DNA of 20,564 nucleotides from IMG/VR virus record IMGVR_UViG_3300025120_000727, positions 1 through 20,564 of that record; one strand, 5' to 3'. Under the pieces are notes generated by a model. The model worked only from the letters and a program-made list of their open reading frames with translations, was not told the origin of the DNA and ran no database searches. Origin of the DNA: a virus. The translations under genes were made by a program, and so were the position numbers. Shown here in pieces: positions 8,698 to 20,564 of the stretch; positions within the stretch are counted from its first letter, which is position 1; each line of letters opens with the position of its first letter.

Positions 8698-8703
8698 TGA
8701 GTT

Positions 8704-8711
8704 GCTAAATA
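8704..8711 (+). promoter_or_regulatory. T4-late-like box GCTAAATA, 5 nt before the ATG
   Basis: TAAATA (8706-8711) ends 5 nt before the ATG at 8717, the same spacing as at 1644, 4208 and 17782. It supports 8717 over the in-frame TTG at 8702 as the start of the next gene. Confidence 0.45.
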
Positions 8712-8716
8712 AACAC

Positions 8717-9610
8717 ATGCAATCAATTGAACTTACACAACCAGTATCTAGTGTCGCATTATTAAAGCAGTTTGAATCAAGATTTGGTCAAACCATGAAT
8801 CTTGAAGGCTTAGATAAAACACAATTAGAAGATCTAGCAAACGGTGTAAGAACTAAAATACACACAATTACTGATAACTTACATTTTGGCAAAGAACTGA
8901 ATGATAATGAATATCAAAAGAGTCAAATGATGTTAGATATTTTAAATCAAAGCATAAAAGAATATGGTGGGGCACAAATGGATCCACAAGCAAAGGCGGC
9001 CGCACAAGGTATGTCAGCACAAAAGAAATTAGAAAAAGGTCAAGCACTTACACCAGATGAAAGAAAAACAGTTGCAAAAGTTTTACCTAAAGAAATGGCA
9101 AAAATGCCAAAAGGCACAGGCAAGATGATTGCAAGTGAAGGCATTGAAGAACAATCAGAATTAATACTTGCCGCTAAGGACATGATGGACAAGGTGACAG
9201 GCTACCTAGAAGATTTAGCATCAATGAAAACAGAAGGCATGTTGGAACTTTCAGACAGAATTAGAGACGAAATGGGTGCAGATAAGTCGGACGCATTCAT
9301 ACAAAAAATTCAACCAGCACTTGAACAAGCAGAGTCTACACTAACACAAACACGACAAGATTTAGACGCAGGTGTGAGAATACTAACAGGTGAAGAAACA
9401 GCTACTGATACCATCGGCGCTGATGACACCATGAACACTGACACTGACCTAGACAGTTTAGAAAATCCAGAAGCAGATGCTGAGTCAGACGAATTTGGAG
9501 CCACTGACGCAGAAGCAGGCGGCACTGAACCCGAAGGCAGAGAACAAAGAGAATCAAAAGAAGTTTTTGAAACTTCAAATAGAATCTACGCCAAACTAGC
9601 AGGGAAGTAA
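8717..9610 (+). CDS. Acidic structural or scaffold-like protein
   Basis: This 297-residue protein, read from the ATG at 8717, has three regions. Residues 1-80 are helical. Around 85-140 is a Lys/Ala/Gly/Met-rich flexible stretch. Residues 140-225 form long amphipathic helices (EQSELILAAKDMMDKVTGYL). A very acidic Asp/Glu/Thr-rich tail (about 225-280) precedes a short C-terminal helix. Coiled coil plus acidic tail resembles phage scaffold or core proteins and other virion proteins of marine T4-like phages. An in-frame TTG at 8702 is less likely because the ATG has a late-type box at the recurrent 5-nt spacing. The exact role is unknown. Confidence 0.6.
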   Translation: MQSIELTQPVSSVALLKQFESRFGQTMNLEGLDKTQLEDLANGVRTKIHTITDNLHFGKELNDNEYQKSQMMLDILNQSIKEYGGAQMDPQAKAAAQGMSAQKKLEKGQALTPDERKTVAKVLPKEMAKMPKGTGKMIASEGIEEQSELILAAKDMMDKVTGYLEDLASMKTEGMLELSDRIRDEMGADKSDAFIQKIQPALEQAESTLTQTRQDLDAGVRILTGEETATDTIGADDTMNTDTDLDSLENPEADAESDEFGATDAEAGGTEPEGREQRESKEVFETSNRIYAKLAGK

Positions 9611-9989: not shown

Positions 9990-10409
9990 ATGCAAGACAA
10001 AATTTTAGAGCTTGGTCTAGAATCTTTAAAGGTGGGTCTTCTATCTTCTGAAAGATACTACCAAAAACCAATAGTCATTTTTAATAGTGCATCATTTTGT
10101 GGATATACAAAACAGTTGTCAGACTTTCAATCGATGTGGGAACAAAAAACTATAGTGCCAATTGCTTTACCTACAAATGAATTTAATAACCAAGAGCCAG
10201 GGGACGACTACGAACTGTTTCAATTTTACAAAAAAAATTACAACATAACTTTTCCTGTTTGCAAAAAAACTGATTTAACTCATAAAGTATTTGACCTTTT
10301 TGGTTCACCAGACTGGAATTTTAACAAGTATCTTTTTGATAAAGATCATAACTTTGTTAAAAAGTTTGATGGTAAGTTTCAACCAGCGGATTTATTAAAT
10401 CATGTCTAA
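9990..10409 (+). CDS. Glutathione peroxidase-like thiol peroxidase
   Basis: This 139-residue thioredoxin-fold peroxidase is a little shorter than typical bacterial GPx/BtuE proteins (about 160-180). The full catalytic tetrad of the family is visible. Peroxidatic Cys37 lies in FNSASFCGYT (compare NVAS-C/U-G-T). Gln68 lies in NNQEPG. Trp109-Asn110 lie in DWNFNKYLFD. The motif FPVCKKTDL (89-97) corresponds to 'FP...K.DV' and carries an extra Cys91 that might act as a resolving thiol. It uses Cys rather than selenocysteine. It would reduce peroxides in the host cytoplasm and may protect infected cells or RNR radicals from oxidation. Its end overlaps the radical SAM gene by 8 nt, which suggests coupled translation. 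Confidence 0.85.
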   Translation: MQDKILELGLESLKVGLLSSERYYQKPIVIFNSASFCGYTKQLSDFQSMWEQKTIVPIALPTNEFNNQEPGDDYELFQFYKKNYNITFPVCKKTDLTHKVFDLFGSPDWNFNKYLFDKDHNFVKKFDGKFQPADLLNHV

Positions 10410-11679
10410 AAGTTATTGTTCCTATCCTTGGTTCCATCAATTTGTTCATACAACAGGACACCAACGTATATGTTGTATGGATGAAAATAACATAACCAAA
10501 GACGATAATTATTTCCAATTTAATTTAAAAAAAGATCAAATACTTGACTCTTGGAACAGTAAATTTATGAAAGACATTAGGCTTAAAATGATTAATGGAG
10601 AAAGTGTCTCCAACTGTCAAAAATGTACAACAGCAGAATCTAGTGGACTAGAGTCTATGAGAGCCACGCATAAAAAAGATTACTATGTTAAATCAACCAA
10701 GGAAGATGGCAGTCTAGATATCTTACCTGATCAACTTGAACTGCATTTTGGAAACACTTGTAATTTGCATTGTAAAATGTGCAGTCAAAACTACAGCCAT
10801 ATGATAGGAAAAGAATTATTAAAAATGGGAGAACAGGATCCGGATTTTATACAATGGGTAAAAAAAGAAAGTGGAGTTGTTAACAACTGGACAGGTGAAC
10901 TTGACATAGCATACGACTGGTATAAAAATAATAAAATTAAAAAAAGTATCTTTGAACACGTAAGCAGTAATGTTGAAGGGTTTGTTGTTATAGGTGGTGA
11001 ACCTACTATCATAAAAGAATTTTATGAACTTTTAGAATTCTGTCAAAGTAAAAATACACTACGAAACAAAGACATTACCATAACCACCAACATGACAAAC
11101 ACCAGTAAGAACTTATCCACCTGGTTAGGTGAAGTAAAAAGTTTTATGATCCACGCGAGTATAGACGGAATTGATCAAAGAAACAAATACATAAGGTTTC
11201 CTTGTAATTGGCAAAGTGTTTTAAATTCTATTGAATTTTATAAGTCCACAATGAAAAAATATAACAATGGAAGATTTTCATTTGCACCTGCTACACAATT
11301 ATTGAACATTGATCAAATTGTAGATCTTAGTAAATTTTTTTTATCGCACTGTGAAAATAAGAAGGATAACATTGCCTGGGTATCTAACGTAAAGTTTCCA
11401 ATTATTTGTGATTACCAAATTCTGCCAAGTGGGTATAAAAATAAAGTAGCAGACAAAATAGAAGAACAAACAAAGAATGTTTCCAATGAAATAGTAAGAA
11501 ATAACTTATTAAGCCATGTGGCTAATTTAAGAACAGAAGAATTTAAAGCAGAACAAAAAAAACAGTACCAAAAAATGTTTATGCGATACAACGATGCACA
11601 AGATCAATTCCGCAGTAGTATCAGTTGGAGAAACCTAATTCCGTCTCTAGAAACTGCTTTGACAAAAGATACAGATTAA
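10402..11679 (+). CDS. Radical SAM protein with extra N-terminal cysteines (twitch type)
   Basis: This 425-residue protein has the radical SAM cluster motif C120-NLH-C124-KM-C127 (CxxxCxxC). The SAM-contacting GGEP motif (residues 198-201) follows a hydrophobic strand. An N-terminal segment beginning CSYPW (6-10) has further cysteines at 24, 25, 72 and 75. This resembles half of a SPASM or twitch auxiliary Fe-S site, but placed before the core rather than after it. Related 'twitch' radical SAM proteins are known from marine T4-like phages, with no established substrate. It overlaps the GPx-like gene by 8 nt. A perfect sigma70 promoter for the next gene lies in its last 21 nt. Confidence 0.85.
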   Translation: MSKSYCSYPWFHQFVHTTGHQRICCMDENNITKDDNYFQFNLKKDQILDSWNSKFMKDIRLKMINGESVSNCQKCTTAESSGLESMRATHKKDYYVKSTKEDGSLDILPDQLELHFGNTCNLHCKMCSQNYSHMIGKELLKMGEQDPDFIQWVKKESGVVNNWTGELDIAYDWYKNNKIKKSIFEHVSSNVEGFVVIGGEPTIIKEFYELLEFCQSKNTLRNKDITITTNMTNTSKNLSTWLGEVKSFMIHASIDGIDQRNKYIRFPCNWQSVLNSIEFYKSTMKKYNNGRFSFAPATQLLNIDQIVDLSKFFLSHCENKKDNIAWVSNVKFPIICDYQILPSGYKNKVADKIEEQTKNVSNEIVRNNLLSHVANLRTEEFKAEQKKQYQKMFMRYNDAQDQFRSSISWRNLIPSLETALTKDTD

Positions 11680-19312: not shown

Positions 19313-19675
19313 TTATTTGAGGTCAACAGTGGCACCCTCGGCTTCTAGTGCTTTTTTCATTTCTTCTGCGTCGGATTTATCTATATCCTCTTTCACTGCT
19401 TTAGGTAGACCTTCAACAAAATTTTTGGCTTCCAAAAGTCCAAGTCCTAATATCTCTTTGACTTTTTTAAGCACAGCAATTTTTTTACCATCAGCAAATC
19501 CTGTTATCAGTACTGATGCTGTGGTTTTTGCTTCTGCTGGAGCTTCTGCTGTAGCTGGAGCCATGCCTGCAACTGCTGTAACACCCCACTCGTCTTCAAG
19601 TTTGTTGGCCAAATCAGCCGCTTCTTGCAGTGTTAGTTTACCCAATTGTTCTACTAATGCATTAATGTCTGCCAT
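19313..19675 (-). CDS. rplL: Ribosomal protein bL12 (L7/L12), phage-encoded
   Basis: This complete 120-residue bL12 has the N-terminal dimerisation domain (about residues 1-34), a short Ala/Pro-rich hinge (about 38-51), and the C-terminal factor-binding domain (52-120). The conserved GLGL (77-80) and EAK (82-84) core is intact, and the C-terminus ends in TVDLK (compare E. coli EVEVK). The protein sits on the ribosomal stalk and recruits IF2, EF-Tu, EF-G and release factors. The start is the ATG at 19675, behind a good Shine-Dalgarno sequence (AGGAAA). The in-frame ATG 11 codons upstream lies inside the 42-residue ORF and is rejected. The stop of that ORF lies 2 nt before this ATG, so translation is probably coupled. 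Phage bL12 genes have been reported in marine phage genomes; no other ribosomal protein is seen here. Confidence 0.95.
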   Translation of the reverse strand: MADINALVEQLGKLTLQEAADLANKLEDEWGVTAVAGMAPATAEAPAEAKTTASVLITGFADGKKIAVLKKVKEILGLGLLEAKNFVEGLPKAVKEDIDKSDAEEMKKALEAEGATVDLK

Positions 19676-19815: not shown

Positions 19816-20085
19816 TTATCTCGATAGTTTCTTTTTACGCCCTAAAGGCACTTTAACCATTCTTGAAACCTTGTTGCCTTTTCTATTAGTGTACTCAACA
19901 CTGACTTCGGTAGTACCTTTTGGTAAACTGCTTTGAAGTCCTTTAATAATTTTTTTGAATGACAATCCCTCTTTGGTCTCATCAAATTCTTTTAAATCAG
20001 TTACTCTAATAGATAGTTTTCTCTTGCCTTTGGCATCTATTAGTGGTTGAAATGCTTTTTCTACTGCTTGTTGTTCTGGATTCAT
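19816..20085 (-). CDS. Small basic hypothetical protein, first gene of the bL12 operon
   Basis: This 89-residue protein has a helical N-terminus and a strand-rich middle (RKLSIRVTDLKEF; TTEVSVEYTNRKGNKVSRMVKVPL). It ends in the very basic tail GRKKKLSR. No known family is recognised. The alternating charge and basic tail suggest nucleic-acid or ribosome contact, which is inference. It heads the leftward operon that continues with the 42-residue ORF and bL12. A perfect sigma70 promoter (20091-20119) sits 5 nt before its ATG, predicting an almost leaderless early transcript. Confidence 0.7.
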   Translation of the reverse strand: MNPEQQAVEKAFQPLIDAKGKRKLSIRVTDLKEFDETKEGLSFKKIIKGLQSSLPKGTTEVSVEYTNRKGNKVSRMVKVPLGRKKKLSR

Positions 20086-20090
20086 ACCTT

Positions 20091-20119
20091 ATTATATATT
20101 GCGAAAGTGTTTTTGTCAA
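20091..20119 (-). promoter_or_regulatory. Perfect sigma70 promoter of the bL12 operon
   Basis: Read on the minus strand, TTGACA (20114-20119) and TATAAT (20091-20096) are separated by 17 bp, 12 of 12 to consensus. Only 5 nt separate the -10 box from the ATG at 20085, so transcription should begin at or within the start codon. This would drive the unknown gene, the 42-residue ORF and bL12. Confidence 0.85.
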
Positions 20120-20361: not shown

Positions 20362-20390
20362 TTGACAGTAAATTGGTTATAGTTTATAAT
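20362..20390 (+). promoter_or_regulatory. Perfect sigma70 promoter of the tmRNA gene
   Basis: TTGACA (20362-20367), a 17-bp spacer and TATAAT (20385-20390) match the consensus 12 of 12. The predicted start near 20397 lies just before the acceptor piece of the permuted tmRNA. It diverges from the lipoprotein promoter, the two -35 boxes being 7 bp apart. Confidence 0.85.
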
Positions 20391-20397
20391 TAAAACG

Positions 20398-20564
20398 TAG
20401 ATGTTGAAGTTGGAAAATAGTTTCGACGGACACCGGTTCGACTCCGGTCACCTCCACCATGACTAGGCAGGTGGCTTATGTAATCCCTTTCGGGGGTGTA
20501 ATGGTATCGACGTGTTATGAAAGTCCAATGGAGTTTACGCAGTAGACACGAGCATACGTTCAGT
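20398..20564 (+). ncRNA. ssrA: Circularly permuted (two-piece) tmRNA, cut by the window end
   Basis: tmRNA frees stalled ribosomes and tags the unfinished protein. Here the 3' part comes first. An acceptor piece, about 20402-20459, contains a T-arm (ACCGG stem, TTCGACT loop, CCGGT) and ends in CACCTCC-A-CCA at 20449-20459. After about 32 nt, GGGGGTG (20492-20498) begins the 5' piece, followed by GGTATCGACG, which matches the tmRNA GG.UUCGACG element. GGGGGUG pairs with CACCUCC over seven positions, including a G3-U70 wobble and discriminator A73, the alanine identity elements. This gene order matches the permuted tmRNA of alphaproteobacteria, in which the intervening loop is removed to give two RNAs. 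The peptide-tag reading frame lies beyond the window. A perfect sigma70 promoter precedes it. The start coordinate is inferred from that promoter. Confidence 0.92.

Follow-up and report, generated by a model that had tools for sequence, protein, structure and literature searches.

The 20,564-nt stretch of viral DNA analysed here (the window) ends in a tRNA-like sequence that had been read, from its letters, as a permuted tmRNA carried by a phage. This raises the question of whether a tmRNA gene is really present and, if so, where it came from and what it might do for the phage.

A permuted tmRNA gene at the end of the window

The Infernal/Rfam check that accompanied the original prediction was run with cmscan and gave a match to tmRNA_permuted (RF04321) at 20397–20538 on the + strand (75.1 bits against a gathering cut-off of 47, E = 4.6e-13), covering model positions 1–133 of 213. 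Most of the tRNA-like portion of a circularly permuted gene is contained in the final 170 bases of the window. All elements are on the + strand, starting with the 5′ flank of the acceptor piece, which supplies one P2 strand (20395–20431) and is identical to that of the relative L058. The T-arm ACCGG-TTCGACT-CCGGT (20432–20448) follows, then the acceptor 3′ strand CACCTCC (20449–20455) with its ACCA end to 20459, an intervening segment (20460–20491) that is expected to be removed in processing, the acceptor 5′ strand GGGGGTG (20492–20498) with a D-like arm of the G18 type, TAATGGTATCGA (together 20492–20510), and finally the P2 3′ strand and the beginning of the first pseudoknot region (20511–20564), placed by alignment with relatives. 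The acceptor half thus precedes the 5′ half, as predicted; the loop between them, estimated at about 32 nt, is exactly 32 nt, and the two halves do make one acceptor stem, with 7/7 pairs including G3-U70.

The contig stops at 20564, ∼8 nt short of the resume codon as located in L056, leaving the tag frame and the downstream pseudoknots outside it. Because of this truncation, ARAGORN called no tmRNA gene in the window. The folding energy of the window tmRNA was no better than that of shuffled sequence, either for the two strands together (z = −0.9) or as a single strand (z = 0.0), and was not counted as support; what carries the identification is the covariance model, together with compensatory changes among relatives in the T-stem. 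Relative to L058, whose T-stem is GTGGG/CCCAC, the window T-stem carries three double compensatory changes. More widely, T-stems are fully paired in all 19 phage copies compared, though their sequences differ widely, and G3-U70 is present in 19/19. The tmRNA at the end of the window is real.

Viral contigs were searched for relatives by exact pattern, by protein and by model. The close syntenic ones are L055/L003 (on contig G002), L056/L002 (G001) and L058/L203 (G003, 172 kb). The prediction that a tag frame and pseudoknots would follow is answerable only in L055, L056 and L058, each of which holds a complete gene, matched over all 213 positions of RF04321 and over 355 positions of RF01849. 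Their ARAGORN tags are ANKKALRFADLVAMPTSRSELRLAA, ANKKALRFADLVVMPTSTSELRLAA and ANRKALRFADLVAMPTSGSALRLAA, respectively, each of 25 aa and ending in LAA. The locus lies downstream of nrdA-nrdB in the syntenic relatives of the window and in several other phages, and adjoins nrdB in many. A permuted tmRNA is also present in two cultured Pelagibacter phages, HTVC008M (tag ANFNEYALAA) and Mosig (tag GEDNFALAA). Phage copies score 78–100 bits with RF04321 and most of the 115 alphaproteobacterial genomes score above 110, so the phage copies are divergent.

Promoters and neighbouring genes

A match to the sigma-70 consensus in 12/12 positions (TTGACA-N17-TATAAT, 20362–20390, +) ends 6 nt before the RF04321 match. 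A promoter match lies at the same distance from the gene in L058 (12/12) and in L055, L056, L057 and L059 (9–10/12). Upstream of the opposing genes, a second 12/12 match (20091–20119, −) is placed to serve an 89-aa protein and ribosomal protein bL12. Both are consensus matches, not proof of activity. Within 20 kb there are four 12/12 TTGACA-TATAAT sites (spacing 15–19), at 1003 (+), 11659 (+), 20119 (−) and 20362 (+); two of the four cluster within 300 nt, at the tmRNA and the 89-aa/bL12 genes.

The bL12 gene (19316–19675, −; PF00542, PF16320) starts with MADINALV, within an open reading frame listed from 19708. Its product is 77–86% identical to that of the closest phages and 42–61% identical to that of many other marine viral contigs. 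The gene adjoins the tmRNA in the window, L002/L004, L003/L005, L203, L208 and L009/L059, and is absent beside it in L210 and L212. The 89-aa basic protein, of unknown family, is encoded upstream of bL12 (19816–20085, −); its homologues adjoin bL12 or tmRNA in other phages, and it is kept beside bL12 even in the distant phages G012 and G015 (31–34%). The AlphaFold model of this protein is poor (pLDDT 56). A glutamine riboswitch, as claimed for phage Melnitz, was looked for in the window and its relatives and not found.

Other genes were noted in passing. The window encodes a radical SAM/SPASM protein (10402–11679, +), which by eye has several look-alikes in G003, and a candidate glutathione peroxidase, picked out by eye (FNSASFCGYTKQ; 9990–10409, +). 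TctA-like transporter genes were likewise seen by eye in G003 (L164, L165).

The window gene is a mosaic

Comparison with L056 and L058 divides the window gene into three runs of identity: 20385–20431 with L058 (47 nt), 20429–20510 with L056 (82 nt) and 20506–20562 with L058 (57 nt). At sites that discriminate the two relatives, the window agrees with L058 at 16/16 (20391–20431), with L056 at 20/20 (20432–20510) and again with L058 at 30/30 (20511–20560). A run of this kind was reached in 0 of 200 000 permutations of site order, a shuffle that assumes independent sites. The 82-nt block (+ strand) is the tRNA-like domain, matching another phage lineage, and the P2 strands, each other's pairing partners, are both on the L058 side.

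Could the mosaic have arisen during metagenome assembly or library PCR, from a true gene that is unmixed? The contig finishes only 54 nt past the second junction, and exact stretches are common to several related phages. The two parents, however, have just 3 nt (GAC) and 5 nt (ATCGA) in common at the junctions. A k-mer assembler could not bridge overlaps of that length unless real reads crossed them, so an assembly error is improbable; an artefact would also need two independent junctions, and other contigs carrying this intervening segment already differ in T-loop and D-loop type. We consider an artefact unlikely. The mosaic gene is the new element here: judged from these identity runs, one core module was swapped in from a related virus.

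In the intervening segment, GGTGGCTTATGTAATCCCTTTC stands directly before the GGGGGTG of the window and recurs in that place in 12 further viral contigs, and the T-arms and tags of these 13 vary widely; the 3′ part of the segment was the search pattern, so that independent evidence of conservation is limited to the GGTGGC part. Even when 3 mismatches were tolerated, the segment was found in 0 of 385 alphaproteobacterial genomes. Two body types are represented among nine further contigs that have the pattern, and the window D-arm, TA(A/C)TGGTATCGA, elsewhere accompanies the second of these, which suggests that the window received its tRNA-like domain from a phage lineage of the second body type. 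Within the segment, hairpins CCACC/GGTGG and CCC/GGG, which rival the acceptor stem, occur in most but not all minimum-energy folds. Using both acceptor strands, they might speculatively represent a precursor conformation; since the conservation of the search-pattern part is by construction, this idea stays a lead.

The elbow and the tmRNA class

The elbow of the window tmRNA is canonical, with U54-U55/A58 (T-loop TTC..A) and G18-G19. Among 35 distinct alphaproteobacterial cores, 32 have G54-G55-C56..G58 with A18-G19, and the other three have U54-G55..A58 with A18 (TGC..A). Phage sequences show all three states: U54-U55..A58/G18 (n = 12, window included), U54-G55..A58/A18 (n = 3, HTVC008M and Mosig included) and G54-G55..G58/A18 (n = 4). 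T-loop position 55 is linked to D-arm position 18, U55 occurring with G18 and G55 with A18, with no exception in the 19 phage sequences and 35 distinct host cores; several of the phage sequences are related or near-identical, so that these counts are not independent events, and L208 fits with a D-arm insertion. We found no report of the 55–18 linkage in the searchable literature, which is weak evidence of novelty. The coupling (U-G versus G-A) across phages and alphaproteobacteria offers a clean way to follow the tmRNA elbow at the sequence level.

The label 'alphaproteobacterial-type', applied originally, holds in part. Of the clan models, RF01849 fits the complete relatives best (57.6–60.7 bits; gathering 50). 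On the other hand, the window elbow is not alphaproteobacterial, and the betaproteobacterial model RF01850 leads on the window fragment, at 37 bits, well under its gathering cut-off of 84. RF01850 gave nothing above cut-off across 150 Pseudomonadota, and there are therefore no true beta-type genes in that 150-genome sample.

Taken together, these patterns may reflect a long-lived permuted tmRNA lineage that belongs to the marine phages themselves and is recognizable by its phage-specific intervening segment. Within this lineage, the T-arm and D-arm with their co-varying elbow (54–58, 55–18) would be exchanged between phages as a unit, independently of P2 and the tag. We put this forward tentatively. 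If true, such exchange would let phages retune contact with SmpB, EF-Tu and AlaRS as hosts change.

Phage type and origin of the gene

That the gene belongs to a phage is supported by the syntenic viral contigs and by the window's NrdA and NrdB, which are nearest to those of the Pelagibacter phages HTVC008M and Mosig, plus cyanophages. The description of this phage as T4-like, taken as kinship with Kyanoviridae and their relatives, survives for the replication genes, through the NrdA/NrdB affinity and the T4-type DNA polymerase and clamp loader of the 172-kb relative G003, but not for the virion: the T4 portal (PF07230) and capsid (PF07068) families are absent from G003, which may be incomplete, and present in G015. 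One window structural protein (8702–9610, +) has a sole isolate-phage match, at 30% identity, in the 469-kb Sinorhizobium phage Phosso, a hint that the structural genes are far from T4.

The original prediction also held that the phage had acquired the gene from its host. A BLAST search with a complete relative gene against 385 alphaproteobacterial genomes, the class covered by this donor search, returned only matches of ∼20–50 nt and no donor, so that recent acquisition from such a host found no support. BLAST of the tmRNA gene against isolate phages gave short hits only, in T-arm and tRNA-like stretches, and no extended homologue. Cellular matches to bL12, from a peptide-filtered scan, are led by marine alphaproteobacterial MAGs (∼52% identity), equalled in closeness by a verrucomicrobial MAG contig, and give a weak hint of the host. 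One alphaproteobacterial genome (L158; G116:C5:288000-289100) carries two permuted tmRNAs, the second of which (84 bits) has a phage-like T-loop, TGCAAGT, adjoins tRNA-Pro and is perhaps on a mobile element.

Another reading is a relic: a piece of tmRNA, picked up together with an integration site, that has no function and drifts. In its favour, tmRNA genes are known integration sites (PMC11915505) and the window holds only a partial gene. Against this, the promoter is conserved, the stems are compensated, the synteny is stable, the frames are intact in all complete relatives and none of the 385 alphaproteobacterial genomes has a host gene that gives an extended match. A relic is thus highly improbable. 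The window copy and its relatives indicate that the gene travels with phages rather than being recently host-derived, and that its tRNA-like domain swaps as a module.

Proposed function

We consider it probable that the locus is a phage permuted tmRNA (ssrA) gene of a marine myovirus-like lineage that is expressed early from a host-type promoter, processed into two pieces, used for ribosome rescue and LAA tagging, and inherited within the phage lineage with recombination. Host RNA polymerase would transcribe it early from the consensus promoter. By analogy with known permuted tmRNAs, the precursor would be cleaved into an acceptor piece and a coding piece, held together by P1 and P2, and host AlaRS would charge the RNA at its G3-U70 acceptor. 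No SmpB was found in the phage records, and therefore host SmpB would serve; with EF-Tu of the host, it would carry the charged RNA to stalled ribosomes, which would be rescued, a tag ending in LAA being appended for host proteases. Translation would probably be sustained in this way during host mRNA degradation, alongside the phage bL12. The gene itself would pass down within the phage lineage, reshuffled by recombination, with the window's tRNA-like domain apparently drawn from a second phage lineage. The most likely function of the gene, we infer, is to rescue ribosomes early in infection.

Alternatively, the phage RNA could act as a decoy: tying up stalled ribosomes or the SmpB or AlaRS of the host, it would give no productive tagging and would block host trans-translation. 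There is a precedent in the tag-less tmRNA-like RNA of mycobacteriophage DS6A, which is reported to inhibit the endogenous tmRNA in Escherichia coli (PMC11915505), and the elbow and tag of the window clade are unlike alphaproteobacterial ones. The relatives nevertheless keep full tag frames ending in LAA and a resume region, which a decoy does not need, and we regard this as quite unlikely.

The tags bear on a further alternative. The long phage tags have 22–29 aa; sampled host tags are mostly ANDN...(A/V)AA of 10–15 aa, with long tags in some alphaproteobacteria. In the window clade and in L057/L059 the tags exceed the ANDN... tags of hosts in length and do not resemble them, and a long phage tag could be imagined to route rescued proteins away from ClpXP or to protect them. 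Yet every phage tag ends in LAA, the usual protease signal, long tags are found in some alphaproteobacteria too, and short tags like those of hosts (ANESYALAA, ADENLALAA, ANFNEYALAA) occur in some phages of this group, making such retargeting very doubtful. The tag ANESYAIAA of a 1.2-Mb genome resembles ANESLALAA and ANESYALAA of phage contigs G012 and G015. The window copy and its relatives also show that a tmRNA can adjoin a phage ribosomal protein gene, behind consensus early promoters. Together with the passage of the gene among phages and the modular exchange described above, this makes phage takeover of ribosome rescue testable.

Comparison with known systems

A permuted tmRNA in a phage had been thought unusual. 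It is not new in kind: two-piece ssrA genes were published in 2022 for phages Melnitz and Mosig, with an early promoter noted, and a likely two-piece tmRNA was reported in 53 phage genomes, mostly marine, with rescue or selective degradation as the proposed role (Buchholz et al. 2022, PMC9004378). The tmRNA database lists 79 phage tmRNA sequences (PMC11915505). The phage two-piece tmRNA is known yet barely studied.

Like the Melnitz and Mosig genes, the window gene is a permuted ssrA of a marine myovirus with an early promoter, alpha-like by overall model. The Mosig and HTVC008M copies differ in having the U54-G55/A18 elbow, the tags GEDNFALAA and ANFNEYALAA, respectively, and another intervening segment, whereas the window clade has the canonical elbow and, in the relatives, 25-aa tags. 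With the alphaproteobacterial two-piece tmRNA (RF01849), the best clan model on the complete relatives, the phage gene shares gene order, the 3′ pseudoknot motif GGCAACAGAA and the P2 arrangement; it departs from that type in its T-loop (TTCGACT, not GGCRGTA), its D-arm (G18, not A18) and its phage-specific intervening segment. The betaproteobacterial RF01850 consensus has a T-loop UUCGANU and a D-arm UGG as in the window, but the window reaches only 37 of the 84 bits and the complete relatives favour the alpha model. Virus-encoded bS21 and bL12 are also known, bL12 among cultivated phages only in genomes below 80 kb (Mizuno et al. 2019, PMC6375957); the phage bL12 described there is of the kind found near the window tmRNA, but a tmRNA is not mentioned in that work.
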